Origin: Paracoccus sp. TOH
Lineage (GTDB): Bacteria; Pseudomonadota; Alphaproteobacteria; Rhodobacterales; Rhodobacteraceae
DNA length: 64,000 nt
Reading direction: 5' to 3'
Assembly (NCBI RefSeq): GCF_030388245.1
Contig: NZ_CP098363.1
Coordinates: 1-64,000, forward strand
The notes below the pieces were generated by a model. It saw only the letters and a list, made by a program, of their open reading frames with translations, did no database searches and was not told the DNA's origin. Positions 2,954 to 55,820 of this stretch are shown here, piece after piece. Within the stretch, counting starts at the first letter, position 1. Every line of letters starts with the position of its first letter. The translations under genes and the position numbers were made by a program.

Positions 2954-3532
2954 TCACGTCATCCCCCTCTCACCTAAACGCCGATAGAGCGTCCTTGTGG
3001 TCACGCCAACACGTTCGGCCACTTCGGCAGCGGATAGCGACTGATCGGCCCAGAGCCGCTTCGCCTTTTCCAGTGCTTCGCCGCGCAGCTGCTTCGGCGC
3101 TCCACCAACACGGCCTGTTGCGGCTTGCGCCGCCCGCGCGGCTGCCGCGACTTCCCTGCGGTTTTCCAGTTCGGCACCTTGGGCAAATTCTACAGCCGCC
3201 AGAGCGTCTGGGTGCCAAGCGACCTTATGCCCACTGTCGGCAACGAGAATCGATGCCTGCCGCTCTCCCACAGCCCGCAGAACGGCAAGAACATCGCTCA
3301 TGGTAGTGCCAAGCCTGGATGCACTGGAGACCACCAGTTCGTCGCCCGGACGAAGGCTCTGGACCGCATTATTGCGACCCAGCCAGGTCGGTGGATCGCC
3401 CCGCTTGAGAGGCGGATCGACAAAGACCGAGACACCTTCCGAAAAGTCATTAATGCCAACCCTTTCGAGGGCCTTCTGTTGATCTTCGAGCGATGGCCCA
3501 GCTTTCGACAGTCGGATGTATCCGCGCTTCAT
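2954..3532 (-). CDS. Serine-recombinase-like protein (resolvase fold + HTH)
   Basis: 192 aa from MKRGYIRLSK. The N-terminus matches resolvase/invertase catalytic domains: YIRLS with the nucleophile Ser at about residue 9 and a following Q-rich helix, then ELVVSSASRLGTT where canonical proteins have the DRLGRS motif. The first Arg of that motif is kept but the second is Thr. The last ~50 residues form an HTH_7-like domain (LWADQSLSAAEVAERVGV, then RTLYRRLG). Close paralogue of 5664-6251, on the opposite strand. It lies just left of a repeat element at 3549-3611. Whether it still recombines DNA or is now a regulator is not decided by the sequence. Confidence 0.8.
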   Translation of the reverse strand: MKRGYIRLSKAGPSLEDQQKALERVGINDFSEGVSVFVDPPLKRGDPPTWLGRNNAVQSLRPGDELVVSSASRLGTTMSDVLAVLRAVGERQASILVADSGHKVAWHPDALAAVEFAQGAELENRREVAAAARAAQAATGRVGGAPKQLRGEALEKAKRLWADQSLSAAEVAERVGVTTRTLYRRLGERGMT

Positions 3533-3548
3533 TCCCATGTCCCAAAGG

Positions 3549-3611
3549 TGTGACATTATCTTTTGCACTGGCAATCTGTCATAGGTTGTGTCACGAGTCA
3601 ATTGCAACCTG
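3549..3611 (-). repeat. Element A: ~60-bp repeated dyad upstream of resolvase-like gene
   Basis: On the + strand it begins TGTGACATTATCTTTTGCA and contains TAGGTTGTGTCACGAGTCAA. It shares most positions over about 48 bases with element C (62738-62800, same orientation) and a core (GTTGTGTCAC, then AGTCAATT) with element B (5586-5652, opposite orientation). It holds inverted GTGACA/TGTCAC half-sites. It sits directly upstream of the resolvase-like gene, so it could be an operator/promoter, a recombination site, or both. Confidence 0.65.
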
Positions 3612-3714
3612 TGTTTTGGAGTCCGGCGACCACTTCGCGGTCCAGGACACGGAAGGCGATACCATTCTTGAACTTCCGAAACAGCTGGCCAGCGCTCCCG
3701 AGGCCGCAAGTCAA

Positions 3715-5663: not shown

Positions 5664-6251
5664 ATGCGTCGAGGATACATCCGGCTTTCGAAGGCAGGGC
5701 CAAGCCTGAAGGAGCAACAGGACGCGCTCGCATCTGCTGGTATCGACAACTTCACAGACTTCGGCCCTGTCTATGTGGACGTGATCCCGCGAGGCAGGCC
5801 GGCTGAAGCACTGCCGAACCGCCGCCATGCGATCATCAGCCTGGAGCCGGGTGACGAGCTAGTGGTTGCGAGTGCGGCCAGGCTCGGGACTTCCGCTGTC
5901 GATGTTCTGGAAGCGCTGGCGGAGATCGGGCGGCGCGGAGCCAGCGTATTTGATGTCGAGCAGTCCCAATTGGTGTCTTGGCACCCCGACGCCTTGCCGG
6001 TCTTGGAGTTCGCGAGCCGCGCAGAGGCACAGGGCCGCAAGGAAGTCGCGGCCAAAATGCGCAGGGCGCGAGTGGAAAGCGGCATGATCGGAGGTCAGCC
6101 TGCCAAGCTCAAAGGCGCTCTTCTCGCGAAGGCGCGTAGCCTATGGGCAGATCCGAGAATGTCTGCGGCAGAAGTCTCCGAAGAGGTCGGCGTGAGCGTC
6201 AGAACGCTCTACCGGCATCTGGGCGACAAGACCGCCAGTGGTTCCAAATAA
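5664..6251 (+). CDS. Serine-recombinase-like protein (paralogue)
   Basis: 195 aa. The N-terminal catalytic fold begins MRRGYIRLSKAGPS with Arg and the nucleophile-type Ser in place. ASAARLGTS again keeps the first Arg of the canonical DRLGRS motif and loses the second. The C-terminus is an HTH unit (LWADPRMSAAEVSEEVGV, then RTLYRHLG) of the same type as in 2954-3532 and in the HTH-array protein at 44474. The two recombinase genes diverge around a 2-kb block of small genes, each with its own copy of the repeat element upstream. Confidence 0.8.
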   Translation: MRRGYIRLSKAGPSLKEQQDALASAGIDNFTDFGPVYVDVIPRGRPAEALPNRRHAIISLEPGDELVVASAARLGTSAVDVLEALAEIGRRGASVFDVEQSQLVSWHPDALPVLEFASRAEAQGRKEVAAKMRRARVESGMIGGQPAKLKGALLAKARSLWADPRMSAAEVSEEVGVSVRTLYRHLGDKTASGSK

Positions 6252-13463: not shown

Positions 13464-13507
13464 GGTCTCCTGCGGAGAGTTCTGGAATAATCCATCGAAA
13501 GATAGTA

Positions 13508-13519
13508 TGTATTTAGATA
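13508..13519 (-). promoter_or_regulatory. TATCTAAATACA motif between divergent genes
   Basis: Minus-strand TATCTAAATACA. It lies in the 74-base gap between the divergent genes 12726-13463 and 13538-13915. The same 12-mer with one to three changes occurs ahead of several other transcription units (15702, 26311, 38497, 43579, 45854). Confidence 0.5.
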
Positions 13520-15701: not shown

Positions 15702-15736
15702 AATCTAAATATAGTCTGTATTTCGACCGTTTTCAA
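15702..15736 (-). promoter_or_regulatory. Promoter with shared TCTAAATA motif
   Basis: On the minus strand, TTGAAA (15736-15731), a 17-base spacer and TATATT (15713-15708): a near-consensus sigma-70 promoter for the gene at 15678. The motif AATCTAAATATA (15702-15713, plus strand) overlaps the -10 box. Confidence 0.55.
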
Positions 15737-26282: not shown

Positions 26283-26304
26283 ATCCGGCACCTCCTATCC
26301 AAAA

Positions 26305-26333
26305 ACAATATGTTTTTAGATAGAAATGGTCAA
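26305..26333 (-). promoter_or_regulatory. Promoter of the minus-strand transfer operon
   Basis: Minus-strand TTGACC (26333-26328), 17-base spacer, TATTGT (26310-26305). The spacer contains TATCTAAAAACA (26322-26311), the motif shared with other operons. This would give a short leader before the 56-aa gene. Confidence 0.65.
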
Positions 26334-41004: not shown

Positions 41005-42174
41005 ATGTGGGCAGGAGATCCCATCGACTATTCGGGTCCGCACCTGTCGGACCCGAACGCGATCATCCCGCTGCTCGCGGCAATGGCCCGGATGAAAGTC
41101 GATGACGTTTTCATCACGACTGACAACCCGGTGCAGATCGAGCACTTGGGCGAGATGAGGTCGGTGACGCGCTATACCCTGAACGGAAGCCAGGTCGAAC
41201 GCATCCTCAAGAAGATCACCGGCCAAGATGCCGTGATCGGCAAGGTTGGCAGCGGGACCGATTTCGACAAGGCCATCACGGTCGATGACCCGGATGAGCG
41301 CGATGAGCATGGCGAACCGATCCAGCATCGCTTCCGTCTGAACATCACGGGCGGCTTTGCGGGCAATGGCCTCGGTTTCGATGCGACCCTGCGTCGGATC
41401 AACGCTGTGCCGATGACGCTGGATCAGGTTGGCTTCCCCGAGACGCTGCGGGACCGCTTTGCAGTCACGCAAGGTTCGTTCCTGATCGCCGGTCCCACCG
41501 GCTCCGGGAAATCGACCACCTTCTCAGCCTGCATCCGCGAAATCCTGGAAGGCGACACCGCCATCAAGGGGAACATCCTCGAATACTCCGCTCCCACGGA
41601 ATACCTGTTCCACACCATTAGGTCACGCCATTCCCGCGTCATGCAATGCGAAATCGGCACTCACCTGCCGTCTTTTGCCGCTGGTGTCCGCAATGCTCTG
41701 CGTCGGCACCCGAAGCTGACAATCATCGGGGAAATCCGCGACACCGAAACGATCATGGCTGCAAACGAACTGGCGTCAGGTGGCCACCCTCTCTTTGGCA
41801 CCACTCACGCGAACAGCAGCATCGAGATCCTCCAACGGCTCGTCCAGAACTTTCCGGTCGCCCAATACGACCAGGTGTTCGCCGCGCTCGTCAACACCTC
41901 GCGGCTGTTCATGTCGCAGATCAGGGTGCGAGTGCGCGACACGGATCAGATGACCGTGCTGCGCGACTGGCTCTATCTCACCAACGACGACAAGCGAGCT
42001 TTGCTGGCGGCTGGATATTCCGGCCATATCGAGGTGCTGCGTCAGCTGATCCAGAACCCCGCGAACGGCCGCTCCATGCGGACCTCTATCGATGAAGCCT
42101 ACGACGCTGGCCTTCTGGACGATGGCCAGCGCCTGACCCTCTACAAAACCTATGGTGAAGAAGATGGCGTATGA
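41005..42174 (+). CDS. dotB: Hexameric T4BSS ATPase DotB/TraJ
   Basis: 389 aa. VirB11/PilT-type ATPase with Walker A GPTGSGKST (163-171), Asp box-like region ILEYSAPTEY, Walker B LTIIGEIRDTET and His box GTTHANSS. DotB powers assembly and substrate transfer at the inner-membrane base. It follows dotC by four bases and overlaps the next gene. Confidence 0.93.
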   Translation: MWAGDPIDYSGPHLSDPNAIIPLLAAMARMKVDDVFITTDNPVQIEHLGEMRSVTRYTLNGSQVERILKKITGQDAVIGKVGSGTDFDKAITVDDPDERDEHGEPIQHRFRLNITGGFAGNGLGFDATLRRINAVPMTLDQVGFPETLRDRFAVTQGSFLIAGPTGSGKSTTFSACIREILEGDTAIKGNILEYSAPTEYLFHTIRSRHSRVMQCEIGTHLPSFAAGVRNALRRHPKLTIIGEIRDTETIMAANELASGGHPLFGTTHANSSIEILQRLVQNFPVAQYDQVFAALVNTSRLFMSQIRVRVRDTDQMTVLRDWLYLTNDDKRALLAAGYSGHIEVLRQLIQNPANGRSMRTSIDEAYDAGLLDDGQRLTLYKTYGEEDGV

Positions 42175-42730: not shown

Positions 42731-43014
42731 GCAAAGATGACGATTTCGACCGGGCGGACGTGATCGTGTCCGAACGCTGGCGCTTTACCAGCGCTCCGAC
42801 GACCGTGGCCGGTCTACACGCTTCCATTCTGCTTGGCCTGCCAGCCATGGTTCCGGCCCTCGCGCTGGGGGTCTGGCGTCCCGTCTTCGTGCTGTGGCTG
42901 GCCTATCTGGGCTTCGTCATCTATCTAAAGTCAAAATGGAAGATCACTCCGTTCGAGTGGGTGCGCATGATGTTCACCCGCTTCGTGAAGGGCAACAAAT
43001 GGCTGGTGCGATAG
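42727..43014 (+). CDS. icmT: IcmT/TraK membrane protein
   Basis: 95 aa from a TTG start that overlaps the previous TGA (TTGA); the longer start at 42703 is less likely. Pattern fits IcmT: WRFTSAPTTVAGLHA, two membrane helices (about 27-62), then KWKITPFEWVRMMFTRFVKG. IcmT/TraK is a small Dot/Icm inner-membrane protein. Gene order dotC-dotB-(peptidase)-icmT matches IncI traI-traJ-traK. Confidence 0.8.
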   Translation: MSKDDDFDRADVIVSERWRFTSAPTTVAGLHASILLGLPAMVPALALGVWRPVFVLWLAYLGFVIYLKSKWKITPFEWVRMMFTRFVKGNKWLVR

Positions 43015-43550
43015 AAGTATTTGAGGCGGCCGTCTTCGAGGCCGTCTTCGAGACATTGAGCGTGAAGGATGGCGATGCGGCCTGCGACGTGATCGCGTCT
43101 GGGCTGGCCGAGGTTGTGGACGGCTTGAGCCACGCGGATGCAGTGGAGTTCGTGGTCCCGAACGCACCAAGGCTTGTTCCAGAGCGCGAATCGCTCACGG
43201 AAGAAGGCCGGGCCGCGTCCATGGTCATCAACGATTTCTGGTATAGGGAGGATACATTTTCCCCGATATTTTACGCGCTTGCGCGAGAGTTCTATTTGCG
43301 CGTCCGACCCCAGACCTATCTTTTTGCACCAGTTGCCCAGCTGGCAGAGGATGATAGAGCGCTGTTCGGCTGCAAGCTGACCGATATACGATTCGAGGGC
43401 GAGAAATCCCCAGCTGGCGGGGAAAACGCGGCGATGATGCTATGGGCAGGCTGCTCGGTTGCGGCAGTGAAGTTCTGCTTCCAGAGGAGCATCGCCATGC
43501 CGATAGGCTACGCGCTGCTGTTCGACTTTGTGCGGAACTCTGCTGCCTGA
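42999..43550 (+). CDS. Hypothetical protein
   Basis: 183 aa from MAGAIEVFEAAVFEAV; starts inside the end of icmT. Helical N-terminus, mixed C-terminal half with four Cys (ACDVIA, FGCKL, AGCSV, KFCFQ). No signal peptide. Not recognised. It ends the first part of the operon; a motif-bearing gap follows. Confidence 0.55.
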   Translation: MAGAIEVFEAAVFEAVFETLSVKDGDAACDVIASGLAEVVDGLSHADAVEFVVPNAPRLVPERESLTEEGRAASMVINDFWYREDTFSPIFYALAREFYLRVRPQTYLFAPVAQLAEDDRALFGCKLTDIRFEGEKSPAGGENAAMMLWAGCSVAAVKFCFQRSIAMPIGYALLFDFVRNSAA

Positions 43551-43578: not shown

Positions 43579-43590
43579 TATCTAAAGACA
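43579..43590 (+). promoter_or_regulatory. TATCTAAAGACA motif upstream of 43651
   Basis: One-base variant of the shared 12-mer TATCTAAAWACA, located 61 bases before the start of the coiled-coil gene. No convincing -35/-10 pair was found at the usual offset. Confidence 0.4.
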
Positions 43591-43650
43591 AACTGAGAGC
43601 ATATTGAGTAGTCAAGACCAGAGCATACAAAAGAAGAACTCGGAGCACCT

Positions 43651-44403
43651 ATGTCGTCGTCCGTTAAGGCCCTTTTTGACCAGGCAATCCAGCCAGACTC
43701 CCCCTACCTGAAGATGCTTCAGGAACGAGGGCTGGTTCGACGGGATCTGACGGCAGACGATCTGAAGTCAGAGCCTGTGCGGGGCGATGCCGTCGAACAG
43801 GCGCTCATACTGTTCGCGGCCGAGGTCCAGCAGACAGAACGGCAGGAAATCCTGGCCGAGCTGCAAGTTTCGAGCCAGCCGGATCACGACATGCGCGTGG
43901 CCGCTTTCAAGGGGTTCGAGCGATCCCCGACACCCGACGCAGTATTGCGCAAGCTGGAAGGGAAGGCGGAAACGATCTGGGACAAGGCGGTCGCGCCCAT
44001 TCGAGAGCGGTCCCTGGACGTGATCGATACCGTGAATGAGGCGACGGCGAGCATCGAGGCGAAGGACTACGAAAAGGCTCGGGAAATCCTCGAATCCGCG
44101 GCGAGCAAGCAGGCCAAGGTCGAGACGCAGTTCCAATCCAGCTATAACGAGGCGAGGCGCGGCTTGCGCCGCGAATACAATGCTGAGTTCGGCAGCCGTG
44201 TCTGGAACGAGGATGCCACCAAGCACTATGACACGCTGGTCAATCGCTCAATGTTCGTCCCGCCAGAGGAAATGCGAAACGCGGCTCATGCGCTGAGCGA
44301 GACGAAGCAGCGGCTCATTGCGGAGAAATCCTATGTGACCGAACTGGAGAAGCGCGCCCAGGCGCGGCCCAGCGCCAAGCCTGGCGCTTCGTTCAAGCCT
44401 TAG
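43651..44403 (+). CDS. Hypothetical coiled-coil protein
   Basis: 250 aa, soluble, no Cys. Largely helical, with likely coiled coil from about residue 120 (SIEAKDYEKAREILESAASK) to 180. Ribosome site CTCGGAGCACCT. It precedes the HTH-array gene by 70 bases. Not recognised. Confidence 0.6.
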   Translation: MSSSVKALFDQAIQPDSPYLKMLQERGLVRRDLTADDLKSEPVRGDAVEQALILFAAEVQQTERQEILAELQVSSQPDHDMRVAAFKGFERSPTPDAVLRKLEGKAETIWDKAVAPIRERSLDVIDTVNEATASIEAKDYEKAREILESAASKQAKVETQFQSSYNEARRGLRREYNAEFGSRVWNEDATKHYDTLVNRSMFVPPEEMRNAAHALSETKQRLIAEKSYVTELEKRAQARPSAKPGASFKP

Positions 44404-44473
44404 ATCTTGGGCAGGCCAGCCCATGAAGAAGAAAGCGCCCGGACAGGAACAACGGCTTCGGGGGAGCACGGAT

Positions 44474-45679
44474 ATGCCTGACCCTTTGGCTGTCGCAAAG
44501 CTGCTCTGGCAAGAGGCGCAGTTCACAAGCCCGGCGATAGCGCTCCTGACAGGGATACCTTTGAGCAGCCTGATCGAGCAGCTTGGCGACCGAAGGTTGG
44601 TTGCGCAGCCATCGAAGAACGCCAAGATTTTCAGGGCGGATGATGTCGCACCATTGTCACACGCCGAAATGGCAGCGATCCTTTCCGCGAAGCCGGAGCG
44701 GGTAGCGAAGCAAGGTGGCCACGCCTACCTGATCCCGGACTGGCGCGAAAAGGCCCAGCCGTTATGGGCAGACCCAACGCTGTCTGCGCGGCAAGTAGCA
44801 GATGCAGTTGGTATATCGCCCTACAGGCTTACCCGCGAGTTGGGTGCTCGACCCTCGACTTTGGGGCAAGCGAAGGACCTAGCGACGGGGAAGAAGCCCA
44901 ATCCAGCCCGTTTGGAACAGGCCCGAGAAATGTGGACTGATCCTGCTGTGCCCGTGCGTTTGATCGCGGATGTCACCGGCATAGGAGCCGCCACCCTGTA
45001 TGCAGAGCTTGGTCCTAAGCCCGGACGCGGCGCTCGGCAGAACAGAGCCAAGCGCCGCACGAAGATGGATTCCAAGTTGCGGGAGAAGGCCCGCAAGATG
45101 TGGGACAATCCTGCGCTGACGCAAGGCGAGATTGCGGCGGTGCTCAACCTGTCTGTCACACGACTTCGCCGCGAGCTGGGTTTTCGGAAAGCCAGATACA
45201 AGCCGGGCAAGCCCATGACAGCGGAAATTATTGAGCAGGCTCGCAAGATGTGGACCGATCCGATGATCCCCATGACCGCGATAGTCGCGTCCACAGGCAT
45301 CACCGAAGGGCGGCTTCGTCACGTCCTCGGGCGAAGGCCGTTTTCCTATCGCAGACCAGGGCCAGACCCTGCCCGTCTGGAAGTGGCGCGCAAGTTGTGG
45401 ACCGATCCGACTGTGACCGTTGCAGAGATCGCGGAGCGCTCTGGCATAAAGGCCCTTACTCTCTACAAAGCCTTGGGTCCACGGGGAGTTCATCCGAGGC
45501 GCAAGACCGCAACGAGTTCAATCCCGGAGGATCAGCTTGAGCTGGCGCGCAAGTTGTGGACCGATCCGACGTTGACCGTTGCAGAGATCGCAGAGCGTTT
45601 TGGCATAAAGGCCCATGTTCTCTACTACGCCTTAGGTCCGCGCGGGGTTCATCCAAGGCGAAAGCCGAAAAGGGGCTAA
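44474..45679 (+). CDS. Tandem HTH-array protein
   Basis: 401 aa from MPDPLAVAK, chosen for its ribosome site (GGGGGAG); 17 more residues are possible from 44423. At least seven units of the type 'LWTDP-x-x-T-V-A-E-I-A-E-R-x-G-I-x-x-x-x-L-Y-x-x-L-G' recur, with the marker Trp at about 12, 98, 154, 210, 260, 309 and 362 (spacing 49-56, one longer gap). Each is the HTH_7-like domain that ends the two resolvase-like proteins. No catalytic domain is present. Units six and seven are nearly identical in DNA (45389 and 45545 onwards), so the array is still expanding. Likely a DNA-binding protein reading an extended site; no family name known to me. Confidence 0.8.
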   Translation: MPDPLAVAKLLWQEAQFTSPAIALLTGIPLSSLIEQLGDRRLVAQPSKNAKIFRADDVAPLSHAEMAAILSAKPERVAKQGGHAYLIPDWREKAQPLWADPTLSARQVADAVGISPYRLTRELGARPSTLGQAKDLATGKKPNPARLEQAREMWTDPAVPVRLIADVTGIGAATLYAELGPKPGRGARQNRAKRRTKMDSKLREKARKMWDNPALTQGEIAAVLNLSVTRLRRELGFRKARYKPGKPMTAEIIEQARKMWTDPMIPMTAIVASTGITEGRLRHVLGRRPFSYRRPGPDPARLEVARKLWTDPTVTVAEIAERSGIKALTLYKALGPRGVHPRRKTATSSIPEDQLELARKLWTDPTLTVAEIAERFGIKAHVLYYALGPRGVHPRRKPKRG

Positions 45680-45832
45680 ATCCCGGAGGATCAGCCTGAG
45701 CTGGCGCGCAGGCGGTGGGCTGATCCGACGCTGGCCGTTTCCCAGATCAAGCCATCTGCCTGGATCTCTTCCAGGCAGCATTTTCACGAATTTGGACTTC
45801 TGGAAGGTAAGCGGGGCAGGCGGTCTCGATGA
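45680..45832 (+). pseudogene. Decayed further HTH unit past the stop codon
   Basis: After the TAA (45677-45679) the same frame stays open to a TGA at 45830-45832 and resumes the array: IPEDQPELARRRWADPTLAV, then an altered end (GLLEGKRGRRSR). The DNA matches the start of unit seven. The recognition helix is lost. Either the array was truncated by a nonsense change or the stop is read through at low level. Confidence 0.65.
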
Positions 45833-45848: not shown

Positions 45849-45896
45849 CAATCTATCTAAAAACAGATTGTAAACTCACGAATGGGCCGGTATAGT
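45849..45896 (+). promoter_or_regulatory. Promoter and palindromic operator before the DsbC-like gene
   Basis: TTGTAA (45868-45873), 17-base spacer, TATAGT (45891-45896). The shared motif TATCTAAAAACA (45854-45865) is embedded in the imperfect palindrome with arms CAATCT (45849-45854) and AGATTG (45865-45870) that touches the -35 box. It would drive the 45923-61289 genes. Confidence 0.65.
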
Positions 45897-45922: not shown

Positions 45923-46702
45923 ATGTCAAATGCCAAAATCGGCCTGCTCGCCGGTAGCGCTGTCGCCCTGATCGCAATGGCCGGAAGCGGTGGTTTCTTC
46001 GCGGGCCACCTCTACGCGAAGGTTCAGTTTCTTGAGGGTCAGCAGGCTGCACAGGCCGCGCCGGGGCCGACAAACCAGATTCCTTATGGCGCTGCGCCCT
46101 CCATGGATCTGGCCGAACAGGTTCCCCTGATCCAGGCCCCTGCGCCTATCCAGTCTTCGCTCAACGAAAATGACGTTCCTCGCGCCATCGCGCCGGTCCT
46201 GGCCGACGCCGAAAGCGCGAGCGGCATTCTCGATGTGCTATCGAAGGCAAGTTCGATTGTCGCGGAGGGCGAAGCAGAGCACGAACAGCCGATCTACGCC
46301 TTTTTCGATCCCACCTGCCCGTATTGCAAGAACGCCATGGCGGAGCTGAACGGCAAGGCCAAGATCCACTGGATTCCGGTCGCGGCCGTCAGCGACATGC
46401 AGACCGTCTCCAACCTGATCGAAGGCATGAAGACCTTGCCTGGCAAGGATGCGGTCGCATCTGTCGTGGCCGGAGAGGTTCCGCAGGCCACCGCCACGAC
46501 CGAAACCCAAGGTCAGCTGCAAGACAATTTCTCCATCCTGCGGGCGATCTACCAGGGTTCGGAAGACAGGCTGGCGGTCCCCACCTTCCTGGTCCCGCGC
46601 GAGGACGGCACGGTGACGCTCACGCGCGGATACGACAAGGCCGATCCCGCCAAGAACATGCCCGGCGATAGCGGCGAACTGCTGGGGGCCTACGGATCGT
46701 GA
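45923..46702 (+). CDS. DsbC/TrbB-like thiol-disulphide protein
   Basis: 259 aa. N-terminal membrane anchor/signal (AKIGLLAGSAVALIAMAGSG), Pro/Ala-rich linker, then a thioredoxin-fold domain with FFDPTCPYCKNAM (CPYC active site, about 132) and a cis-Pro-like VPTFLV. DsbC-type proteins isomerise disulphides of periplasmic proteins; plasmid copies such as TrbB assist pilus or channel assembly. The GTG start of the next gene overlaps its stop. Confidence 0.8.
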   Translation: MSNAKIGLLAGSAVALIAMAGSGGFFAGHLYAKVQFLEGQQAAQAAPGPTNQIPYGAAPSMDLAEQVPLIQAPAPIQSSLNENDVPRAIAPVLADAESASGILDVLSKASSIVAEGEAEHEQPIYAFFDPTCPYCKNAMAELNGKAKIHWIPVAAVSDMQTVSNLIEGMKTLPGKDAVASVVAGEVPQATATTETQGQLQDNFSILRAIYQGSEDRLAVPTFLVPREDGTVTLTRGYDKADPAKNMPGDSGELLGAYGS

Positions 46703-47052: not shown

Positions 47053-47709
47053 ATGACGATGGACGTTCATGCGGAGATCGAAGTCCGTGACAGCCATCTT
47101 CGCTCCCAGAAACGCTTCACGCTCGTTGCCCTGATCGGCATGGCGGTCGCGCTGGTCGTTTCGCTGCTTGTCAACCTCGCCTTGATTATCGCGTTCAATT
47201 CCTACCCCAAGACGCAATGGGTTTGGACGCAGGACGCGAAGGCGGTCTGTGAGGCGATCCCGCTCACAGAGCCGAATATCTCGCAAGCGCTCCTGGCTGA
47301 TTTCGCGGCCCGCGCCGCGATCAGTGTCCATACCTATGACTACATCAACTGGCGCGAGAACCTGTCCTATGCGGTGCAGAACTACTTCACGCCGGTTGGG
47401 GGGCGCTATTTCATCGACTCGTTCGCCCGGTCGAACATCCTTCGCCAGGTCCAGCGCAACTTCTATGTCGTCTCGGCCGTCACCGATGGCGCTCCGCTGA
47501 TCGAGAGCACCGGGATCGATCATGGCCGGATGTTCTGGAAAGTCGAGGTTCCGATCACGATCACCTATCGGTTCGGTGCCGACTACAAGGCCGAACGCCG
47601 GATCATCCAGTTGACCGTTCTGCGCGTGGACCCCACGCCCGCCAACCCCAACGGAGTCGCCATCGACGGCTTTGTCTCCGTTCAAAACACCAATGCCCGG
47701 AGGAAGTAG
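47053..47709 (+). CDS. dotI: Inner-membrane DotI/IcmL (TraM)
   Basis: 218 aa. One N-terminal membrane helix (FTLVALIGMAVALVVSLLVN, about 23-48), then the DotI/IcmL periplasmic domain: LLADFAARAAISVHTYDYIN, NYFTPVGGRYF, RVDPTPANPNG. DotI forms an inner-membrane complex (with DotJ in Legionella) structurally akin to VirB8. Followed by a secreted duplicate. Confidence 0.9.
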   Translation: MTMDVHAEIEVRDSHLRSQKRFTLVALIGMAVALVVSLLVNLALIIAFNSYPKTQWVWTQDAKAVCEAIPLTEPNISQALLADFAARAAISVHTYDYINWRENLSYAVQNYFTPVGGRYFIDSFARSNILRQVQRNFYVVSAVTDGAPLIESTGIDHGRMFWKVEVPITITYRFGADYKAERRIIQLTVLRVDPTPANPNGVAIDGFVSVQNTNARRK

Positions 47710-48231
47710 ATGTTCAAGCGGCACATGACAGCGATTGGGCTTGCCTTCGCCCTTCTCGGGGCAGGTTCAGCCTATGCGCGGACGCTCACGGACCCCATCA
47801 ACGAAGCTCTGCTGGCGGATTTCGCGGCCCGCGCTGCCGTCAGTGTCCACACCTTCGATTTTGTAGACTGGCGTGAAGATTTGCTTCGCGCGACGCAGAG
47901 CTATTTCACACCGGAGGGTGGGCGGGATTTTATCGACGGCTTCTCCAAGTCGAACTTCCCTCGCGAGGTCCAGCGAAACTTCTATGTCGTCTCGGCCGTC
48001 ACCGATGGCGCAGCGCTGATCCAGAACACCGGCATCGATCATGGCCGGATGTTCTGGAAAGTCGAGGTTCCCATAACCGTCAGCTATCAGTCTGGCGCAG
48101 ACCGCAGGTCTGAAAGGCGGGTCATCCACATGACCGTCCTCCGCGTGGACCCCACGCCAAAGAACCCTAACGGCATCGCAATCGATAGCGTCGTCTCAAT
48201 GACCGCTATTACACACGGGGAGAACAAGTGA
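47710..48231 (+). CDS. Secreted duplicate of the DotI periplasmic domain
   Basis: 173 aa. The N-terminus is a cleavable signal peptide (MFKRHMTAIGLAFALLGAGS, then AYA) nearly identical to that of dotH, the next gene, while the rest (LLADFAARAAVSVHTFDFVD onward) is clearly DotI's domain. DNA identity with dotI is near-complete around 47978-48070 versus 47459-47552. It lacks the membrane helix, so it should be free in the periplasm. It stands where Legionella has the DotJ partner in function, but with a different topology. Confidence 0.85.
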   Translation: MFKRHMTAIGLAFALLGAGSAYARTLTDPINEALLADFAARAAVSVHTFDFVDWREDLLRATQSYFTPEGGRDFIDGFSKSNFPREVQRNFYVVSAVTDGAALIQNTGIDHGRMFWKVEVPITVSYQSGADRRSERRVIHMTVLRVDPTPKNPNGIAIDSVVSMTAITHGENK

Positions 48232-49601
48232 TGTTCAAGCGGCATATGACAGCGATTGGGCTTGTCCTCGCCCTTCTCGGCGCGACCTCGACTCAGGCAC
48301 AAGACCTGAACTTGTCCCCCGAAGAGCTGCAAACCTTCCTCAACGCAAATCAGGGCCTCACGCCCGAGGAATTGGGCAAGCGGCTGCAAGAGCTGAACGA
48401 TAAGACGCTCGATGCCCAAAGCGAACGGTCGAAAACCGGCTATTCCTTTGCGAATCCCCCGGAACTCTCCATGAGAGCGGTTCGTATCAGGTCGAAAGGC
48501 ACCCCTGCCAGTCCAGAGCCGCTTACGCTCGGACAGGGCATTATTACGGCTGTGGCCTTCGTGGACGATCAGTTCCGTCCTCTGCCGATCTCGGACGTGG
48601 TGCATGACCCCAACGTCTTTTCAGTGAACGGCGATGGGTGCGTGGGAGATGGCCAGCGCCAGAGCCGGGGCGCCCAAGGCAACGGCAACACGCTGAATAT
48701 CTATCCGTGCCAGTTCTGGGCGCAGGGAACGGTCAACGTCACGGTCCAGGGTGCATCGCAGCCGATTATCTTTTCTGCCAAGGCAGGGTCGAGAGAGGAA
48801 CGGCCCACCGTGGATGCCATGGTCACGGTTGAGGTCGATGATGGCGCATCCAATGAGTTCCCTGATTATGCTTCGCGGCGGCTGACGATCAATCCAGTTG
48901 ATCGTTCCTCGGGCGGTGTCACCCCGATCTATCCGGGCCTGGGCGTCATCACCGATGTGGCCTTTATCGACAGCTCGGGAAATCCTTGGCCTGTTGAGAA
49001 GGTGGTCCACCAGGCATCCATGGTCTCGGTGAACGGATCACAATGCGCGAGCGAGAGTGAACAGGGCGCAAAAACGCAAGATAGCAGCGGCAACGTGATC
49101 TATCTGTCGCTCTGCCGCGACCGCAGCTCGAATATTTCGGTGCAACTGCAAGGCGCTCCGGCCGCGCTCGGCCTCCTGCTCGTCTCGCCCGGCACCAATC
49201 AGAGCGCAATGAAGCGGGACGTGACGCTATCCGTTACAGTCCCCGGCCGCAGCCCGACAGCCGTGGCGAATGCTACCGCTGCCGCGTCGGCGCTGCCGCA
49301 GAACAATGTGGATCGCACGGGCTTCCAGCCGGACCGATTCCTGACCGATTTCGTGAACGGCACCCCGCCGCGCGGTGCTCGGTTCGTTCAGATGCTCGGT
49401 GCGCCGAACATCGAGGGCTACGTCTATAACGGACAGCTCTATGTCCGAGGTCGCTACCGCCCGATCAACCCGACCGCCGATGCCTCGGCGTCCAGCAGCT
49501 CGGGGGCGGTGAATGTCTGGCGCTACAACAAGCCCGTGAACAGCCTGATCGTGTCTGACGCGCAGACCGGCCAGGAATTTTCCCTCACCGCAGATTACTG
49601 A
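48231..49601 (+). CDS. dotH: Outer-membrane core component DotH/IcmK (TraN)
   Basis: 456 aa from the ATG overlapping the previous TGA. Signal peptide (GATSTQAQ). Two similar beta domains are visible: LGQGIITAVAFVDDQFRPLP (about 98) and GLGVITDVAFIDSSGNPWPV (about 235), each followed by a Val-Ser-Val-Asn-Gly and Cys. The C-terminal domain ends RFVQMLGAPNIEGYVYNGQL and VWRYNKPVNSLIV. DotH builds the outer-membrane ring with DotC/DotD and DotG. Confidence 0.9.
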   Translation: MFKRHMTAIGLVLALLGATSTQAQDLNLSPEELQTFLNANQGLTPEELGKRLQELNDKTLDAQSERSKTGYSFANPPELSMRAVRIRSKGTPASPEPLTLGQGIITAVAFVDDQFRPLPISDVVHDPNVFSVNGDGCVGDGQRQSRGAQGNGNTLNIYPCQFWAQGTVNVTVQGASQPIIFSAKAGSREERPTVDAMVTVEVDDGASNEFPDYASRRLTINPVDRSSGGVTPIYPGLGVITDVAFIDSSGNPWPVEKVVHQASMVSVNGSQCASESEQGAKTQDSSGNVIYLSLCRDRSSNISVQLQGAPAALGLLLVSPGTNQSAMKRDVTLSVTVPGRSPTAVANATAAASALPQNNVDRTGFQPDRFLTDFVNGTPPRGARFVQMLGAPNIEGYVYNGQLYVRGRYRPINPTADASASSSSGAVNVWRYNKPVNSLIVSDAQTGQEFSLTADY

Positions 49602-49616
49602 CCGGAGGCATCACCA

Positions 49617-51221
49617 ATGGCCAATATGAAAACTATTGCGCTTGTAAGCGGGGGTGTCGTGGTCGCCTTCGCCGCGATCATCGGCATGAACATGGTGGCA
49701 TCGGACAAGGAAGGCGAGAACTTCGCCGGTGGTGTGAGCCAACAGAGACTACCGCGACAGCTTCCCGAGTCCAACGCCGATCCGTTCCAGGTCATTGCCG
49801 ATGAGGACGAGGCCGCCCGGCGCGCGACCAGCAATCGCCGGATCGCGGAAGAGGAAATTCGCCAGGTCGGTGACGTTCCGGCCTATACCGCCCCGCCTGT
49901 TATCCAGCTGGAGGGCAGCTCAGGAGACAGTTCGGACCCGATGGCATCGGCGCTGGTCGATCAGGAAGACCGGCCGACGCCGGAAGAGCTGGAGCAGGCG
50001 GTGATCGAGCCGGTCAAGCCGCCAGAGCGCGAATATAAGGTGCCCGATCAAGGATCGGAAGCTACGGCAACGAATACCACCGATCCGTTCATGGATGCGA
50101 TGCTGCGCCGCGCCCTGACCGCAAATCGCACTTACGGCGTGAGTATCCAGACCTTCCCGGACAAGGGGAATACGGGTTTCACACCCATGACGATCCAGCA
50201 GTTCTCAACCGGGCGAGGAAACCGCACGGGACAGGGTGGCGGAACCGCTGGCTTGCCTGTGTCGGGCCTGCCGGAGCCTGCGGCGAGCATGACGAATACC
50301 AGCACCGGGACCGGGCTTCCCGATCCGGCCCCGAGGATCACGCTGCCCGAACAGTCGTCTTCGCAACCGTCGAACGACACTTCCGGGGGCGTCATGCGGA
50401 CCATCGATCCGAACACGCCATCTTCTTACATCGAGGGCGCTTTGCAGGATGCCATCGGGGGCGGGGCCTTTGCTGCGCTCTCGAAGGATCATGATGCCGA
50501 ATACGACTGGCGACAGCCCTACCAGGTCGCGCAATCCGCAATCGGGATCGACAACAATTCGCGGATCTACGACACCGCCCGCAATGCACAGGCGTTCGAC
50601 GCAGGAACCCTCATTCTGCCGGGGGATCAGCGCTACGCCACGCTCATGTATGGGTTCAACAGCGACGACGCGGCCCAGCTGCCGGTTTTCGCCCAGCTGC
50701 ATGATTACGGCCCGGCAAGTTCTGCTTTCCTGAACGGCGCACGGGTGCAAGGCACCCTCCGGCTATCGACCGAAAGCGCCGTCATGGAGTTCGACAAGCT
50801 GATCTTGCAGGACGGTCGCGTCGTGCCGATCCAGGCGATGGGCATCAGTGCGGATCAGCTGCGCGTCGGCGTTTTCAAGAACGTAAACCGTCATACGCTC
50901 TCGCGCTATTCTTCGCTGCTCGTCTCCGGCTTCATCAAGGGCGTGGGCGATGTCGGAACCCGGATCATCGAGAACAAATATGACCGGGCCGATAACGTCA
51001 TCATCATCGGTGATGGCACCACCACCGACCGCTACCCCGACGACAAGTTCAGTGATGCAGACAAGGCCGCTATCGCCATGGGCGCGGTAAAGCCCATCGG
51101 TGACGAAATGGCCTCGGCCGCAGCGCAGGGCTTCCGGCGAAAACCGACCGTCACCGCCCCGGCAGGCTTCGGCCTCTCCATCGTATTCCTCGAAGGTCTG
51201 ACCTTCGGCCAGGTGCAGTAA
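49617..51221 (+). CDS. dotG: Core-complex protein DotG/IcmE (TraO), VirB10-like
   Basis: 534 aa. N-terminal membrane helix (about 5-26), a long polar and Pro-rich periplasmic region (30-290), then the conserved VirB10-like C-terminal domain: ARNAQAFDAGTLILPGDQRY, FNGARVQGTLR-type block, KLILQDGRVVPIQAMGIS, and a final hydrophobic strand (AGFGLSIVFLEG). It spans both membranes in the core complex. It lacks the long pentapeptide-like repeats of Legionella DotG, like IncI TraO. Confidence 0.9.
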   Translation: MANMKTIALVSGGVVVAFAAIIGMNMVASDKEGENFAGGVSQQRLPRQLPESNADPFQVIADEDEAARRATSNRRIAEEEIRQVGDVPAYTAPPVIQLEGSSGDSSDPMASALVDQEDRPTPEELEQAVIEPVKPPEREYKVPDQGSEATATNTTDPFMDAMLRRALTANRTYGVSIQTFPDKGNTGFTPMTIQQFSTGRGNRTGQGGGTAGLPVSGLPEPAASMTNTSTGTGLPDPAPRITLPEQSSSQPSNDTSGGVMRTIDPNTPSSYIEGALQDAIGGGAFAALSKDHDAEYDWRQPYQVAQSAIGIDNNSRIYDTARNAQAFDAGTLILPGDQRYATLMYGFNSDDAAQLPVFAQLHDYGPASSAFLNGARVQGTLRLSTESAVMEFDKLILQDGRVVPIQAMGISADQLRVGVFKNVNRHTLSRYSSLLVSGFIKGVGDVGTRIIENKYDRADNVIIIGDGTTTDRYPDDKFSDADKAAIAMGAVKPIGDEMASAAAQGFRRKPTVTAPAGFGLSIVFLEGLTFGQVQ

Positions 51222-51501: not shown

Positions 51502-51815
51502 CCCGCCGTTTCTACTACTACACTGGCCCGGTCTCGGCCGAAGACACTGAGTTCCTGACGGACGATGACCGCCAGGCCGCAAAGGATCTCGTTCAGAGGA
51601 TGCACAGCCTTTGGCAGAGCATCGAGCGCGGCGATCAGGAGGGGAAGTATTCCCGAGACGCCGAACGGCGGATCGAGGATGAACTGAAGCGCCGCGAACA
51701 GGCCGGACGCACTGCCCTGATCCGTGTCTTGCAATGCTCGAAAGCCGAGCTGGACGACATCAGCAGCACCGTTTTCGACACGCTGCCCGACATTCTTGTG
51801 ATCGAGCAGCATTAA
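51498..51815 (+). CDS. Hypothetical helical protein before dotO
   Basis: 105 aa from MTRRFYYYTGPVSAED; overlaps the previous stop. Charged helices (AAKDLVQRMHSLWQSIERGD; RRIEDELKRREQAGRTAL). No signal peptide. Fourteen bases upstream of dotO. Not recognised. Confidence 0.55.
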   Translation: MTRRFYYYTGPVSAEDTEFLTDDDRQAAKDLVQRMHSLWQSIERGDQEGKYSRDAERRIEDELKRREQAGRTALIRVLQCSKAELDDISSTVFDTLPDILVIEQH

Positions 51816-51829
51816 GGGAGCCGCATAAG

Positions 51830-54184
51830 ATGGCCTTTTCCGACGAATATTGCGATCTGCACGGCTTCGACCGCGCGAAGCCCTATTTCACCGCGCACGA
51901 TCACGCAAACTGCTCGATCATCCGCGTCCACGGCTGCGACAGCATCGCCTCGGCCAACGAGTTCCAGAAGCGTATGGCTGTGGCTGCGCAGAGCATAGGC
52001 GCGCTGCTGCGCGGGCCGCACCACTCCCTGACGATCACCTTCGAGAGATCGCTCAACAATTCCGAATATGTCGAGCGCTTCCGCCGTGAGCGTCAGCGCG
52101 AGGCGCAGGCAAAGAAGCTGAACGCATCCGTTCTGGTCGAGGAAACCCTGACGGTCCTCAAGGAACGCATCGTCTATGAAGAAATCCTGATCGCCTGCTG
52201 GACGGGCATCGGGGCGGGCTATCCCGAAGAGACCAACGCGGAGTTTGCCGAGAATCGCGCCACCTGGGGCCGCATCAATACGCCCACGGCGATGAATCCG
52301 CTGATCGCGGTTCAGAACCTCGAAGGCCCCCATATGTCGTTCGTCGGCGGCATTCTCGACGCGCTGCGTAGCGCGAAGATCAAGGCGGAGCTGCTGAGCG
52401 ACAGCACGGACACCACGCGCCGCGACCTGGCCGCTGTCCGTCGCGCCCTGCTGTTCCACGAGACCCCGGAGAACTGGACGCCCCAGACCACCTTCGAGCG
52501 CACGTCCTATGAGCTGAAGGAGTATGCCACCAAGGATCTTTCCGGCCTGTTCGCGCCGCCGCTGTCGCAGCAAATCATGACCAGCGCCGCAAAGGCGAAG
52601 TCGGATATGCGCTCCGTGGATTTCGGCGGTCGTTCATACGCTGTCGTCTTTGCCTCGATGTTCCCGCGCCAGATGCCGCTGTTCAATCTCCTTGCCTCGA
52701 AGCTGGAACGCTACGATGGCCAGGGCGAGGAGGACATCCCCTGGCGCTACGCGCTCCATTTGAGCGGGGGGGTAAAAATCTCCCCGCTGGCCGATGTCAT
52801 GAACACGATGATGGCCTTTCTGTCACCGATGAATGAACAGAAACGCCTGGCCAATATGGAGGTTCGCGCGCTTAAACAGGGCGATAGGGAAACCTTCGTC
52901 GGCGCTCGCCTCATGGCGGTGACGTGGGTTGAGCCTCATGAGAACCGCGAGCTGCTGACGCAGCGGCGGTCTCGGCTTGTGAGAGCGCTGGAGAGCTGGA
53001 ACAGCCCCACGATCATCGAGGTCGCTGGCGATCCCATGCGGGCGCTTGCCGAGACGGCCGCAGGCATGACCCGAACTGCCAAGGTTGCAAAACAGGCTGC
53101 CGGAGCAATCACCGAGCTGTCGCTGTCGTGGCCTTTCCATCGGACGGCTTCGATCTATCCCAAAGGGCAATCTGTGATGATCTCGCCCGAAGGCAAGCCC
53201 GTCCCGCTCCAGGCGCATTCCCCGGATCAGAATTTCTGGCTGACGCTTATTTCGGCCCCACCGGGGTCGGGTAAGTCGGTCTTTCTGAACCGCACCAATG
53301 CAGAGTTCGCAGTGTTCACGCCGGGAACGGTCCTGCCATTCATCGGCGTCGTGGACATTGGCCCTTCCTCTTCTGGCTTCATTGAACTGGTCAGGGCGAT
53401 GGCTCCCGATTCCATGCGTCACCAGATGCTGCTGGTGAAGCTGAAGAACGACCGGCATGACAGCGCGACCTGCATCAACATGCTGGAACTGACGCTTGGT
53501 AATCGCAAGCCGACCGATCAGCAGCGGCAGGTGATTGAAGCCTTCGTGACCGAAATCCTGGCCGACGATGACGGCCGGGCGAACCGCGATTTCGTCGCTG
53601 CGGCGGTCAAGCAGCTCTATGCCGAACTGTCCGACCTGGAGATCTCCAACCAGGCGAAACGATGGCAAGAGGGCATGTGCCCCCAGATCGATGTGCTCTG
53701 TGCCCAGCATGGCATTGCTCTTCGCGAGACGACGCGCTGGTGGCAGATCGTGGATCAACTGGCAGAGCGGGGCCTGTATCGCGAGGCCATGGTGGCCCAG
53801 CGCTACGCTTCGCCGCTGCTTGAAGACCTCGCTCGTGTCGTTACCGGCAACGTGTTCCGTCAGGATTTCGGGGAGGATTATACCAAGGAAGCCAACCTGC
53901 GCATCCTGGGGGCTATCGAGCAGTTTCCGATCTTCTCCCGGCCGACCACGCTGGATATTGGCGAAGCCCGTATCTGTGCCATCGACCTCAACGATGTGGT
54001 GATCCGCGGATCGTCCAGGGAACGTGGCGTCGTTCGCAACAACTCCCTCATGTATATGTGCGCGGCACAGCTCTTCCTGCGCCAGATCAGCGGCAACGAG
54101 GACGATATTCCAGCCATGTCGTTCCCGGAAGGGAAGCTGCGGGACATCTATCAGCCGACATTCCCCAAGTGGCCTGCCGCTTGA
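51830..54184 (+). pseudogene. dotO: dotO (IcmB/TraU) ATPase, 5' part, interrupted by IS
   Basis: Starts at MAFSDEYCDLHGF. 781 codons are genuine; after the target site GTGG (54169-54172) three codons of IS sequence and a TGA end the frame. This part holds Walker A SAPPGSGKSVF (about 475) of a VirB4-like ATPase. DotO energises the inner-membrane complex together with DotB. Joining it to 55825-56466 gives 994 aa, close to Legionella DotO. The truncated product lacks Walker B, so it should be inactive alone. Confidence 0.92.
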
Positions 54185-55820
54185 CTTCAAGATCGCCTGA
54201 TTTTGCTCGCTGGGCAAGCGTTTTTCGCCCCGAGCGGTGTCTGTCGTCGCGCAAACGGCCGAAGTCGGGTGGATCAAGCCTCGAACCCGCAGCATTCTGG
54301 CCCGGCAGAGCCGCTTTTCCGCGCGGCAGACGGACCTGTCCTGCCGCTTTCGTTCAGCTTGGGCATGGATCGTGGTCATGCGCATGACGGAGGCGTTCGA
54401 AGACGGCGGATGGCGGCAAGGACGGCCCGCACCATCGGGCCGGTGACGGCGACCTCGGCCAACTGGAAGGTAATGGCGCGGGCGTGGCGGACGACGCGGG
54501 CGCCGATCTTGATCAGCTTGAGTTGCAGGCTGGTCAACGACCAGTCCGCCATGGCCTCGGGCAGTTCGATGCAGCGCAGGAAGGTTGCCAGGTTGTAGGC
54601 CAGCGCGTGCAGTTGCAGCCGCACCTCGTTGTGCCGGAACTTCCGGCATGACAGCCGCGTCCAGCGAAAGGCATATTTGCCTTCCTTGATGTGCTGCTCT
54701 GCGGTGCCGCGCTGGTTGTAGAACCTCACCACCCAGTCTGGCTCCATCGGCAGGTTGGTGACGATGAAGCCGACTTTGGGGAACAGCTCGCCCGGATGCC
54801 ATTCGATCTTGGCGATGACGCGGCGCGGCTTGTCCCAGGACGCCGCCTGATACTCGAAGTCCTCGAAGAACCGTTTGACCTTGGTCAGCGAAGGCCGTCC
54901 CACGGGCCGTGTCAGCCGATGCGCGATCTTCTCGCGCAAGACGGCGTTGGCGGGCAGACGGATGGCGTAGAAGAACCTGGCTTCTTCCAGCCGCATATAG
55001 ATCGCGGGGATCGCGTAGGCAGCGTCGGCCCGGAAGAAGCGTCCACCAAGGTCGCGGCCAGCATATCGGGCAATGACGGGATCAAGGACATCCCGCCAGC
55101 CATCGGCGCTGTGGACATTGCCGTTACGCAGGGCGCAGCGCTCCAGCATGCCAAACTGGTTGAACAAGAAGATGGGGTGATAGCAGGTGCAGTCGAAATG
55201 CCCGTTCCAGGCAGCACCTTCCTGATCGCCGTGGGTGGGGCTGACCGAGCTGTCCATGTCCAGCACGATGTATTTCAACCCGTTGCGGTCATGAAACCGG
55301 TCGATCCATTGGCCGTTCAGATCGGCCAGCGCCGCCCGGTTCGCGGCCAGAGCCAGCGTCTCGGTCTCGAACCGTCCCATCTGCGATGCCGAAGCAGCTT
55401 GCGCCTCGACGGCCCTGCCGCCAACGACCTGACGCATCACGGGATCGAGGGCCAAGCGGTCGGCATCGTTCACATCCTCGTATCCGGCCAGTCGTCCGAA
55501 CACCGATTGCCGGAACAATCCGTCAAGCCGATGGAGCGTGTTCTTCCCGGTGCGGCTGTCTCGCAGCGCCTCCGACGCCAGATTGGACAGGCCGAGCACG
55601 TCATCAAGCTCGCGCATCACCAGCAGGCCACCGTCTGAACTGATCTGCGCACCACGGAACTCCAGACGCACACGGCGGTCGAAATCAACCCGATCTCCCC
55701 GCGCCAAGCCCGCACCCTCCAGGTGATCCATGAAACGCGCCCCTCGCAGCCGTCAACGCCATGATTTATATGCGAAATATCACGATTACGACAGCGAAAT
55801 CAGCGACTTACTTGGAGAAT
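54173..55820. mobile_element. IS1380-family insertion sequence in dotO
   Basis: 1648 bp flanked by the direct repeat GTGG (54169-54172 and 55821-55824), a 4-bp target duplication as expected for this family. Deleting the element and one repeat restores dotO in frame (FPK-W-DQTYWRKRF). The ends are only loosely inverted-repeat-like (CGCCTGATTTTGC near the left, CGCTGATTTCGC near the right on the other strand). Confidence 0.88.
54376..55731 (-). CDS. IS1380-family DDE transposase
   Basis: 451 aa. RVRLEFRGAQISSDGGLLVM near the start, the first catalytic Asp in YIVLDMDSSVSPTHGDQEGA, second in FFRADAAYA, and the family's YNQRGTAEQHIKEGK with the catalytic Glu, then RHNEVRLQLHALAYNL. These are typical of IS1380/IS4-type transposases. 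Runs opposite to dotO. The frame appears intact, so the IS may still move. Confidence 0.92.
   Translation of the reverse strand: MDHLEGAGLARGDRVDFDRRVRLEFRGAQISSDGGLLVMRELDDVLGLSNLASEALRDSRTGKNTLHRLDGLFRQSVFGRLAGYEDVNDADRLALDPVMRQVVGGRAVEAQAASASQMGRFETETLALAANRAALADLNGQWIDRFHDRNGLKYIVLDMDSSVSPTHGDQEGAAWNGHFDCTCYHPIFLFNQFGMLERCALRNGNVHSADGWRDVLDPVIARYAGRDLGGRFFRADAAYAIPAIYMRLEEARFFYAIRLPANAVLREKIAHRLTRPVGRPSLTKVKRFFEDFEYQAASWDKPRRVIAKIEWHPGELFPKVGFIVTNLPMEPDWVVRFYNQRGTAEQHIKEGKYAFRWTRLSCRKFRHNEVRLQLHALAYNLATFLRCIELPEAMADWSLTSLQLKLIKIGARVVRHARAITFQLAEVAVTGPMVRAVLAAIRRLRTPPSCA

Follow-up and report, generated by a model that had tools for sequence, protein, structure and literature searches.

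The closest known mechanism, judged by analogy, is that of the archaeal protein Cbp1, in which three HTHs, likely derived from domain duplication and joined by short linkers, are aligned in order along the CRISPR repeat, as described in parts of PMC10883916. The protein analysed here, encoded on a stretch of Paracoccus sp. TOH DNA of 64,000 nucleotides (the window), also consists of several duplicated HTH domains on linkers (the array), and the CRISPR repeat-binding structure 2lvs was its best phmmer and its best, although weak, Foldseek match. Cbp1, however, is archaeal, has three HTHs, and serves CRISPR arrays, whereas the array, encoded in a transfer operon of a bacterial plasmid, comprises six to seven units of resolvase type whose recognition helices are strongly diversified. 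Serine resolvases and invertases such as Gin of phage Mu (PF00239 plus PF02796) have a C-terminal HTH that is homologous to the array unit. The array protein shares this HTH with them but contains many copies instead of one, and no catalytic domain was found in it.

TALE repeats are about 34 residues long, contain two helices, and form a continuous superhelix in which variable residues determine the base that is read. The array resembles them in its tandem repeats, its fixed scaffold, and the variable positions that could set specificity, its recognition-helix positions changing from unit to unit; it differs in that its units are predicted to be separate three-helix domains, 49-56 residues apart, with low-confidence linkers. 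No TALE family was among the Pfam matches inspected for the array protein, and the TALE-like reading of DNA that had been suggested from the sequence is unproven. Pipsqueak of Drosophila combines tandem recombinase-type HTHs in one protein, as the array does, but is eukaryotic and has a BTB domain. Psq is described as an HTH DNA-binding domain in the part of the literature consulted. Tandem-HTH DNA readers are already known as a kind; what is new, as far as our searches extended, is how many units there are, that they are of resolvase origin, that they are found on a plasmid, and the contrast at helix 3. Among papers judged by their titles and the beginnings of their abstracts, no bacterial protein of this tandem-HTH form was found.

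The array gene and its units

The array gene, its unit cores, and a remnant beyond its stop codon are located as follows.

44474..45679, plus strand: array gene, tandem resolvase-type HTH units, 401 aa
44480..44587, plus strand: core of u0, divergent, residues 3-38
44738..44845, plus strand: core of u1, residues 89-124
44906..45013, plus strand: core of u2, residues 145-180
45074..45181, plus strand: core of u3, residues 201-236
45224..45331, plus strand: core of u4, residues 251-286
45371..45478, plus strand: core of u5, residues 300-335, in a 159-bp repeat with u6
45530..45637, plus strand: core of u6, residues 353-388, in a 159-bp repeat with u5
45680..45832, plus strand: u7, a decayed eighth unit, in frame past the array-gene stop and ending at a TGA

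By eye, the ATG start of the gene is preceded by GGGGGAG at 44460-44466, whereas the ATG of a longer frame, at 44423, lacks such an upstream site. The sequence-only reading had counted at least seven copies of the unit; six of them (u1-u6) are clear, but the seventh (u0) is divergent by profile scores. Pairwise alignment scores among u0-u6 were higher than the best of 200 shuffles in all 21 pairs, and u7, whose first half obtained 16.7 bits against the u1-u6 profile, outscored 200 shuffles when compared with u1-u6, though not when compared with u0. When an HMM built from the HTHs of two resolvase-like proteins of the same contig (res1 and res2, see below) was used, u1, u2, u3, u5, and u6 obtained 32.1, 15.3, 11.9, 35.8, and 32.9 bits, respectively, and the top score among 200 shuffled array proteins was 6.6 bits. 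For u4, this HMM gave 6.5 bits (first half only), which is under the shuffle maximum, and a profile of u0-u2, res1, and res2, from which u4 itself was left out, gave 27.7 bits, the shuffle control covering the res1+res2 model only. For u0, the res1+res2 model gave 1.0 bit, and the u1-u6 model gave 5.6 bits.

The repeat is less regular than had been described. The LWTDP marker is exact in u5 and u6 only, being replaced elsewhere by LWADP, MWTDP (twice), MWDNP, and LWQEA, and the final LYxxLG is exact in u2, u5, and u6 only. Instead of running end to end, the units are separated by linkers of 13-20 residues (50 residues between u0 and u1), which gives a unit-to-unit spacing of 49-56 residues in u1-u6. 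The reported absence of a catalytic domain was borne out: Resolvase was not among the Pfam matches of the array protein at E 0.001 (16 of 16 inspected), and PF00239 was absent among the best 25 of its 31 matches at E 1, whereas PF00239 does come up for res1, res2, and Gin in the Pfam search. NCBIfam gave no match near a cut-off (the best reached 27.4 bits against 250), and PHROGs gave weak HTH matches, the best at E 6e-6.

Kinship with resolvase HTHs and growth by duplication

The assignment of the units to resolvase-type HTHs held: PF02796 reached 33.7 bits (cut-off 23.8) and PF13412 46.7 bits (cut-off 21.9) over the whole array protein, both scores being whole-protein sums whose individual stretches all fall short at E 0.001. 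The only other unit matches in the same genome at E 1e-6 (18 of 84 candidates scored) were the ends of two resolvase-like proteins.

2954..3709, minus strand: res1, resolvase-like, with one array-type unit at its end (part used, 2957-3574); catalytic positions degenerate
5664..6251, plus strand: res2, resolvase-like, with one array-type unit at its end; catalytic positions degenerate

When aligned to Gin of phage Mu, both keep the N-terminal Ser, and the D-R-L-G-R of Gin corresponds to S-R-L-G-T or A-R-L-G-T, with gaps beyond; given this degeneration at the catalytic positions of Gin, res1 and res2 are probably poor recombinases. The closest plasmid matches of res1, and also those of DotH, are alphaproteobacterial.

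An HTH of the kind that ends such plasmid resolvase-like proteins was probably copied repeatedly to give the array. Its growth by duplication, proposed from the sequence, was supported by a 159-bp period, a step that is common to u5, u6, and u7. The last two units are not nearly identical in DNA, as had been thought, since the 159-bp copies of u5 and u6 have 27 differences (83% identity), and a near-identical last duplication was rejected on their dS of 0.48. A small protein of the Ochrobactrum plasmid pLM19O2 (L007, 8713-9141) consists of a ribbon-helix-helix-like domain (by eye) and one array-type HTH unit, suggesting that the unit moves between contexts.

Predicted fold and charge

AlphaFold2 modelling of the whole array protein from its single sequence (mean pLDDT 67.1, pTM 0.21) gave seven three-helix domains, at residues 4-37, 90-123, 144-179, 200-234, 250-285, 299-334, and 352-387, mostly with pLDDT 71-87 (ten-residue means), and u0 was modelled as such a domain like the other units. 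Every predicted linker contains a stretch with pLDDT below 50, and extra low-confidence linker helices were placed at 63-70, 127-137, and 185-193. A model of the u5-u6 pair built from three sequences likewise has separate domains (pLDDT 78.5, pTM 0.41), and the predicted fold of the array is that of beads on a string. With a pI of 10.6 the protein is basic, and most of this charge comes from its linkers, each of which carries +3 to +7.

Foldseek found no match at E 0.001 for either the whole-protein or the u5-u6 model; its top match for both was 2lvs, a CRISPR repeat-binding protein, at a weak E of 0.2 and 0.036, and 2lvs was also the top-ranked structure in phmmer (E 2.9e-4). In a search of solved structures with the unit profile, 8vd6 ranked first (E 3.7e-5) and 2lvs reached only E 0.77. 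The entry 8vd6 is named 'CAP REPEAT' and contains 185 aa of repeats with HTH-like motifs; it is presumably a designed protein.

A prediction of one helical solenoid that does not bind DNA had been named beforehand as the result that would overturn the idea of a DNA-binding array; AlphaFold2 predicts separate domains. A solenoid could serve as a protein-protein scaffold of a secretion machine, which would suit a gene located between secretion-system genes (see below), and 8vd6 shows that HTH-like motifs can be built into a repeat protein. However, the solenoid fold was rejected on the basis of the separate domains, the low-confidence linkers, and the pTM of 0.21, and the very basic character of the protein also argues against such a scaffold, which we consider highly improbable.

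Selection and divergence of the recognition helix

The dN/dS ratio (Nei-Gojobori) between u5 and u6 is 0.26. Considering all 28 unit pairs (u7 included), dN/dS is below 1 in each of the 17 pairs with a computable dS, synonymous change being saturated in the remaining 11, which indicates that the open frame of the array has been under constraint. To compare the recognition helices by column, u1-u6 were set against single-unit homologues, 12 distinct ones, taken from other genomes and plasmids. These are the 15 hits minus the second appearance of an ORF that came up under two loci, one copy from a pair of identical plasmids, and a short hit. Two of the 12 share one genome, and the profile by which they were found contained res1, res2, and array units, which biases the set toward similar sequences.

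Our strongest result is that recognition helices differ among the array units far more than among these single-unit relatives. Helix-3 position 30 is T in all 12 homologues, position 32 is Y in 11 and F in one, and position 33 is basic throughout (R in 11, K in one). In the order u1 to u6, the array has Y,A,T,G,L,H at position 29 (different in all six), R,T,R,R,T,V at position 30, T,Y,R,R,Y,Y at position 32, and R,A,R,H,K,Y at position 33, while positions 4, 6, 10, 13, 31, 35, and 36 are invariant across u1-u6. When res1 and res2 are counted among the homologues, the array has a mean entropy excess of +1.07 at positions 27-30, 32, and 33 vs -0.28 elsewhere, and the five largest excesses fall at positions 33, 30, 32, 29, and 27. 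The contrast has a p of 2e-5 by 100,000 permutations, a value that is optimistic because the six positions were picked after the first table had been seen; the pN of these six positions was equalled by a fraction of 0.001 of 1,000 random sets. By sequence alignment, the six positions are those of the putative DNA-reading helix, positions 29 and 33 falling on a Ser and a Lys of the HTH of phage Mu Gin. In Hin, the residues that match these two contact bases.

The combination of diverged helices and a fixed scaffold suits units that would have different DNA preferences, and relaxed constraint fits the divergence between units as well. Across u1-u6, pN and pS are 0.70 and 0.69 in the recognition helix vs 0.33 and 0.66 in the rest of the unit, and such equality in the helix would be expected just as much from drift without function. 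A non-specific DNA-coating protein, in which the scaffold and the basic linkers would bind the backbone while the recognition helices, having lost their specific contacts, drift, is a possible, if doubtful, explanation; the equality of pN and pS, the basic linkers with the pI of 10.6, and the occurrence of Ala in one unit and Tyr in another at position 33 all agree with it. On the other hand, u1, u3, u4, and u5 have retained or acquired Arg, Lys, His, or Thr in helix 3, and position 29 differs in all six units, although neither observation is decisive.

At the other extreme, the array could be a natural modular DNA reader, in which every unit would recognise a separate short sequence by means of helix-3 positions 27, 29, 30, 32, and 33. 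The arm of invertases follows the minor groove, and the basic linkers might do the same between units; specificity for a composite site of tens of bp would then evolve by unit duplication and a few residue changes. The residues at position 33 of u2 (Ala) and u6 (Tyr) speak against specific reading, and we regard this strict form as rather unlikely.

Search for other arrays

No second array was found in any of the searches, within the limits given here for each. In a set of 148 genomes, an array was present in one, the source genome itself. In larger sets of genomes of the same order (390), class (385), and phylum (398), which overlap, each include the source genome, and had at most 18-19 first-look candidates scored per genome, unit matches beyond the source genome occurred in two, four, and one genomes, respectively, all as single units; one genome in these sets has two single units on different contigs. 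None of the 15 unit hits in foreign loci lies in an ORF with more than one unit. Plasmid records gave no match at E 1e-5, and at E 10 there were 33 records, none with 80% coverage; two plasmid hits considered as arrays (H14 and H15) were rejected, being single units matched by several query units. Phage records gave 13 matches at E 10, none with 80% coverage. Pattern scans, which detect close relatives only, gave 2 and 41 matching stretches in viral contigs, none of them confirmed, and in a collection of 84,980 species, 0 of 46 and then 1 of 30 stretches were confirmed, the latter in Nocardia ninae (residues 148-203 only).

A Dot/Icm-like operon with an additional gene

The array gene is flanked by the following genes.

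41005..42174, plus strand: DotB-like ATPase gene, upstream of the array gene in the same operon
42152 (start): MepK-like gene, upstream of the array gene; NCBIfam match below cut-off
42894-43550: small gene, its positional counterpart in Phaeobacter matched at E 0.004 only
43651..44403, plus strand: gene just 5' of the array gene, with a weakly similar protein in Phaeobacter pS26_106
45923..46702, plus strand: DsbG-like gene, downstream in the operon; weak family match below the curated cut-off
47053..51221, plus strand: DotI-like, second DotI-like (by eye), DotH-like, and DotG/TrbI-like genes

Pfam matches above cut-offs were obtained for DotI (gene start at 47053), DotH (48228), TrbI (DotG/TrbI, 49617), and the ATPase, and the NCBIfam matches in the operon, including MepK and DsbG, are below cut-offs. 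The two adjacent DotI-like genes (47053-48231) are alike by eye, the Pfam basis being that of the first. The 43651 gene and the array gene probably form one transcription unit. Plasmid pS26_106 of Phaeobacter piscinae has DotB (42%), then further genes, and then a weak counterpart of the 43651 gene (25% over 134 aa), which is directly followed by a counterpart of 45923 (32%), with no array gene between them. Considering that this matching operon is without the array, the array gene is an extra one in the Dot/Icm-like operon.

Further downstream, a DotO-like secretion ATPase gene (window 51734-56466) is split, its homology to Phaeobacter covering 51845-54154 and then 55828-56436, and a transposase-like ORF (IS1380 type by eye) lies inside it on the minus strand (54376-55731). 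The plasmid transfer system may consequently be defective. The array gene could then be a decaying gene, i.e., junk that was duplicated on a plasmid whose transfer system is broken, and the remnant unit past its stop codon as well as the lack of a detected orthologue would agree with this. Nevertheless, it is one open frame with dN/dS below 1 in all 17 computable pairs and with a usable start site (by eye), and we find such decay quite unlikely.

We lean towards the explanation that the gene encodes a DNA-binding protein of six HTHs and a divergent seventh, which would differ in their preferences and would regulate or organise plasmid DNA in the Dot/Icm-like operon. Selection keeps the scaffold of every domain while the putative DNA-reading helix has diverged between units, so the units would probably contact different short sequences, and the chain, on its flexible basic linkers, could lie along a long composite site or bridge several sites on the plasmid. 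The array protein would probably grip either one long or several separate DNA sites. Given the location of the gene inside a Dot/Icm-like conjugation operon, the most likely job of such a protein would be to regulate or organise plasmid DNA there, with control of transfer genes as the first candidate role and an architectural one as the second. Several points count against this explanation: pN and pS are equal in the recognition helix, position 33 is Ala in u2 and Tyr in u6, the structural matches are weak, the whole-protein model comes from a single sequence, the transfer system may be defective, the box described below may have another reader, and no orthologue was found that would show the array being kept as such. 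Should the units differ in DNA preference, the protein would represent a compact bacterial scaffold of the bead-on-string type on which programmable DNA binding could be built, a case of specificity evolving by duplication and a handful of recognition-helix changes, and a regulator or architectural protein of a type new to Dot/Icm-like conjugation systems. Even with helices that only drift, the array would clearly exemplify how one recombinase module can be multiplied to give a multivalent protein that probably binds DNA.

An operator-like box on the plasmid

A candidate operator sequence occurs on both sides of the array gene and elsewhere in the window.

43579..43595, plus strand: operator-like box TATCTAAAGACAAACTG, upstream of 43651; pattern-source site
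45854..45870, plus strand: operator-like box TATCTAAAAACAGATTG, upstream of the DsbG-like gene; pattern-source site
26296..26322, no strand: box dyad with a 3-bp centre, at the head of a minus-strand T4SS gene block
13494..13519, no strand: box dyad, between the likely starts of minus- and plus-strand genes
15703..15727, no strand: box dyad

The box at 43579 precedes the likely transcription unit and that at 45854, which overlaps the start of a promoter-like site (TTGTAA-17-TATAGT), follows the array gene; the pattern was built from these two sites, so both match it by construction. Beyond them, the window has four sites at up to three mismatches vs 0.17 expected. This contig makes up 225,540 of the 4,506,955 genome bases (5%), and it contains all three exact genomic matches of the 12-bp core (two by construction), six of the nine at up to one mismatch (two for the reversed control), and, for ATCTAAANACANNNTG, 10 of the 16 at up to one mismatch (two by construction). 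More boxes are found before ssb-like genes (by eye), at contig positions 73809 and 203451. The three dyads match at 15 or more of 18 positions and all have a 3-bp centre, other spacings from 0 to 11 giving none; five simulated contigs had no such dyad, the dyad pattern being derived from the real sites. One half-site equals the Mu gix half-site at 10 of 12 bases and the other seven at 6-9, as raw counts with no chance control.

From these sequence patterns, we infer that the box, whose sites lie close to likely promoters of transfer genes and ssb-like genes, may mark a plasmid regulon, and it could be linked to the array protein. A special case of the explanation that we favour would be a repressor or activator of the T4SS operons acting on the TATCTAAARACA box, with several units gripping half-sites and the protein controlling its own operon. 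The four extra window sites, the enrichment on the contig, the dyads with their 3-bp centre, and the gix-like half-site are in line with such a regulator, and no dyad as good as those of this contig was present in the scanned parts of three plasmids without an array: at 13 or more of 18, there was one (13 of 18) in Phaeobacter pS26_106 (100,000 of 106,329 bases), none in a Xanthobacter plasmid (about 138,000 of 144,762 bases), and two (13 of 18), mutual reverse complements, in pEL101-131 (49,000 of 131,537 bases).

Several observations point the other way. A two-fold dyad fits a dimer, such as res1 or res2, better than it fits a chain whose units differ and which lacks symmetry, and the best dyad, being symmetric, favours a dimer as the reader. 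The boxes before the ssb-like genes are far from the array; five of the 10 box sites lie within mechanical ORFs of at least 100 aa, that at 42922 probably within real coding sequence, and the dyad at 13494..13519 falls within longer mechanical ORFs. The 16-bp form at up to two mismatches has 37 genome matches vs 22 for the control. The single box TCTAAANACA at up to one mismatch occurs once in L006, twice in L007, once in L008 (Phaeobacter), and not in L009 (Xanthobacter) among the plasmid stretches scanned; the one in the array-less Phaeobacter plasmid, with one mismatch, lies before a TTGACA upstream of the protelomerase gene. These scans of relatives' plasmids did not tie the box to the array by conservation, and it may belong to the resolvase-like proteins or to another regulator. 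A homologue of res1 (52% identical) is present on the Xanthobacter plasmid although no dyad was found there, which is a weak point against res1 as the reader. Altogether, we consider regulation by the array through this box unlikely.

Other features of the contig and of related plasmids

Protelomerase-like, topA-like, and lnt-like genes are each present in two copies on the contig, at approximately 70-80 kb and 202-208 kb, and the contig may represent either one linear plasmid with hairpin ends or two fused plasmids. PMC13293297 deals with linear plasmids in Rhizobiaceae. The ssb-like genes were named by eye, a Phaeobacter ssb query having given no match on the contig, and two M23 peptidase homologues are located elsewhere on it (11.1-12.0 and 126.2-127.0 kb). 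On Agrobacterium deltaense pEL101-131 (L054), two oppositely oriented recombinase genes at 13224 and 20079 share one protein accession; between them lies a perfect AT-rich palindrome (~16930), and similar dyad-like sites are at 3324 and 30575. The palindrome could be the junction in a linear plasmid with hairpin ends that is shown as circular. In the window, a VapBC-like toxin-antitoxin pair (by eye) is encoded on the minus strand at 14590-15251.
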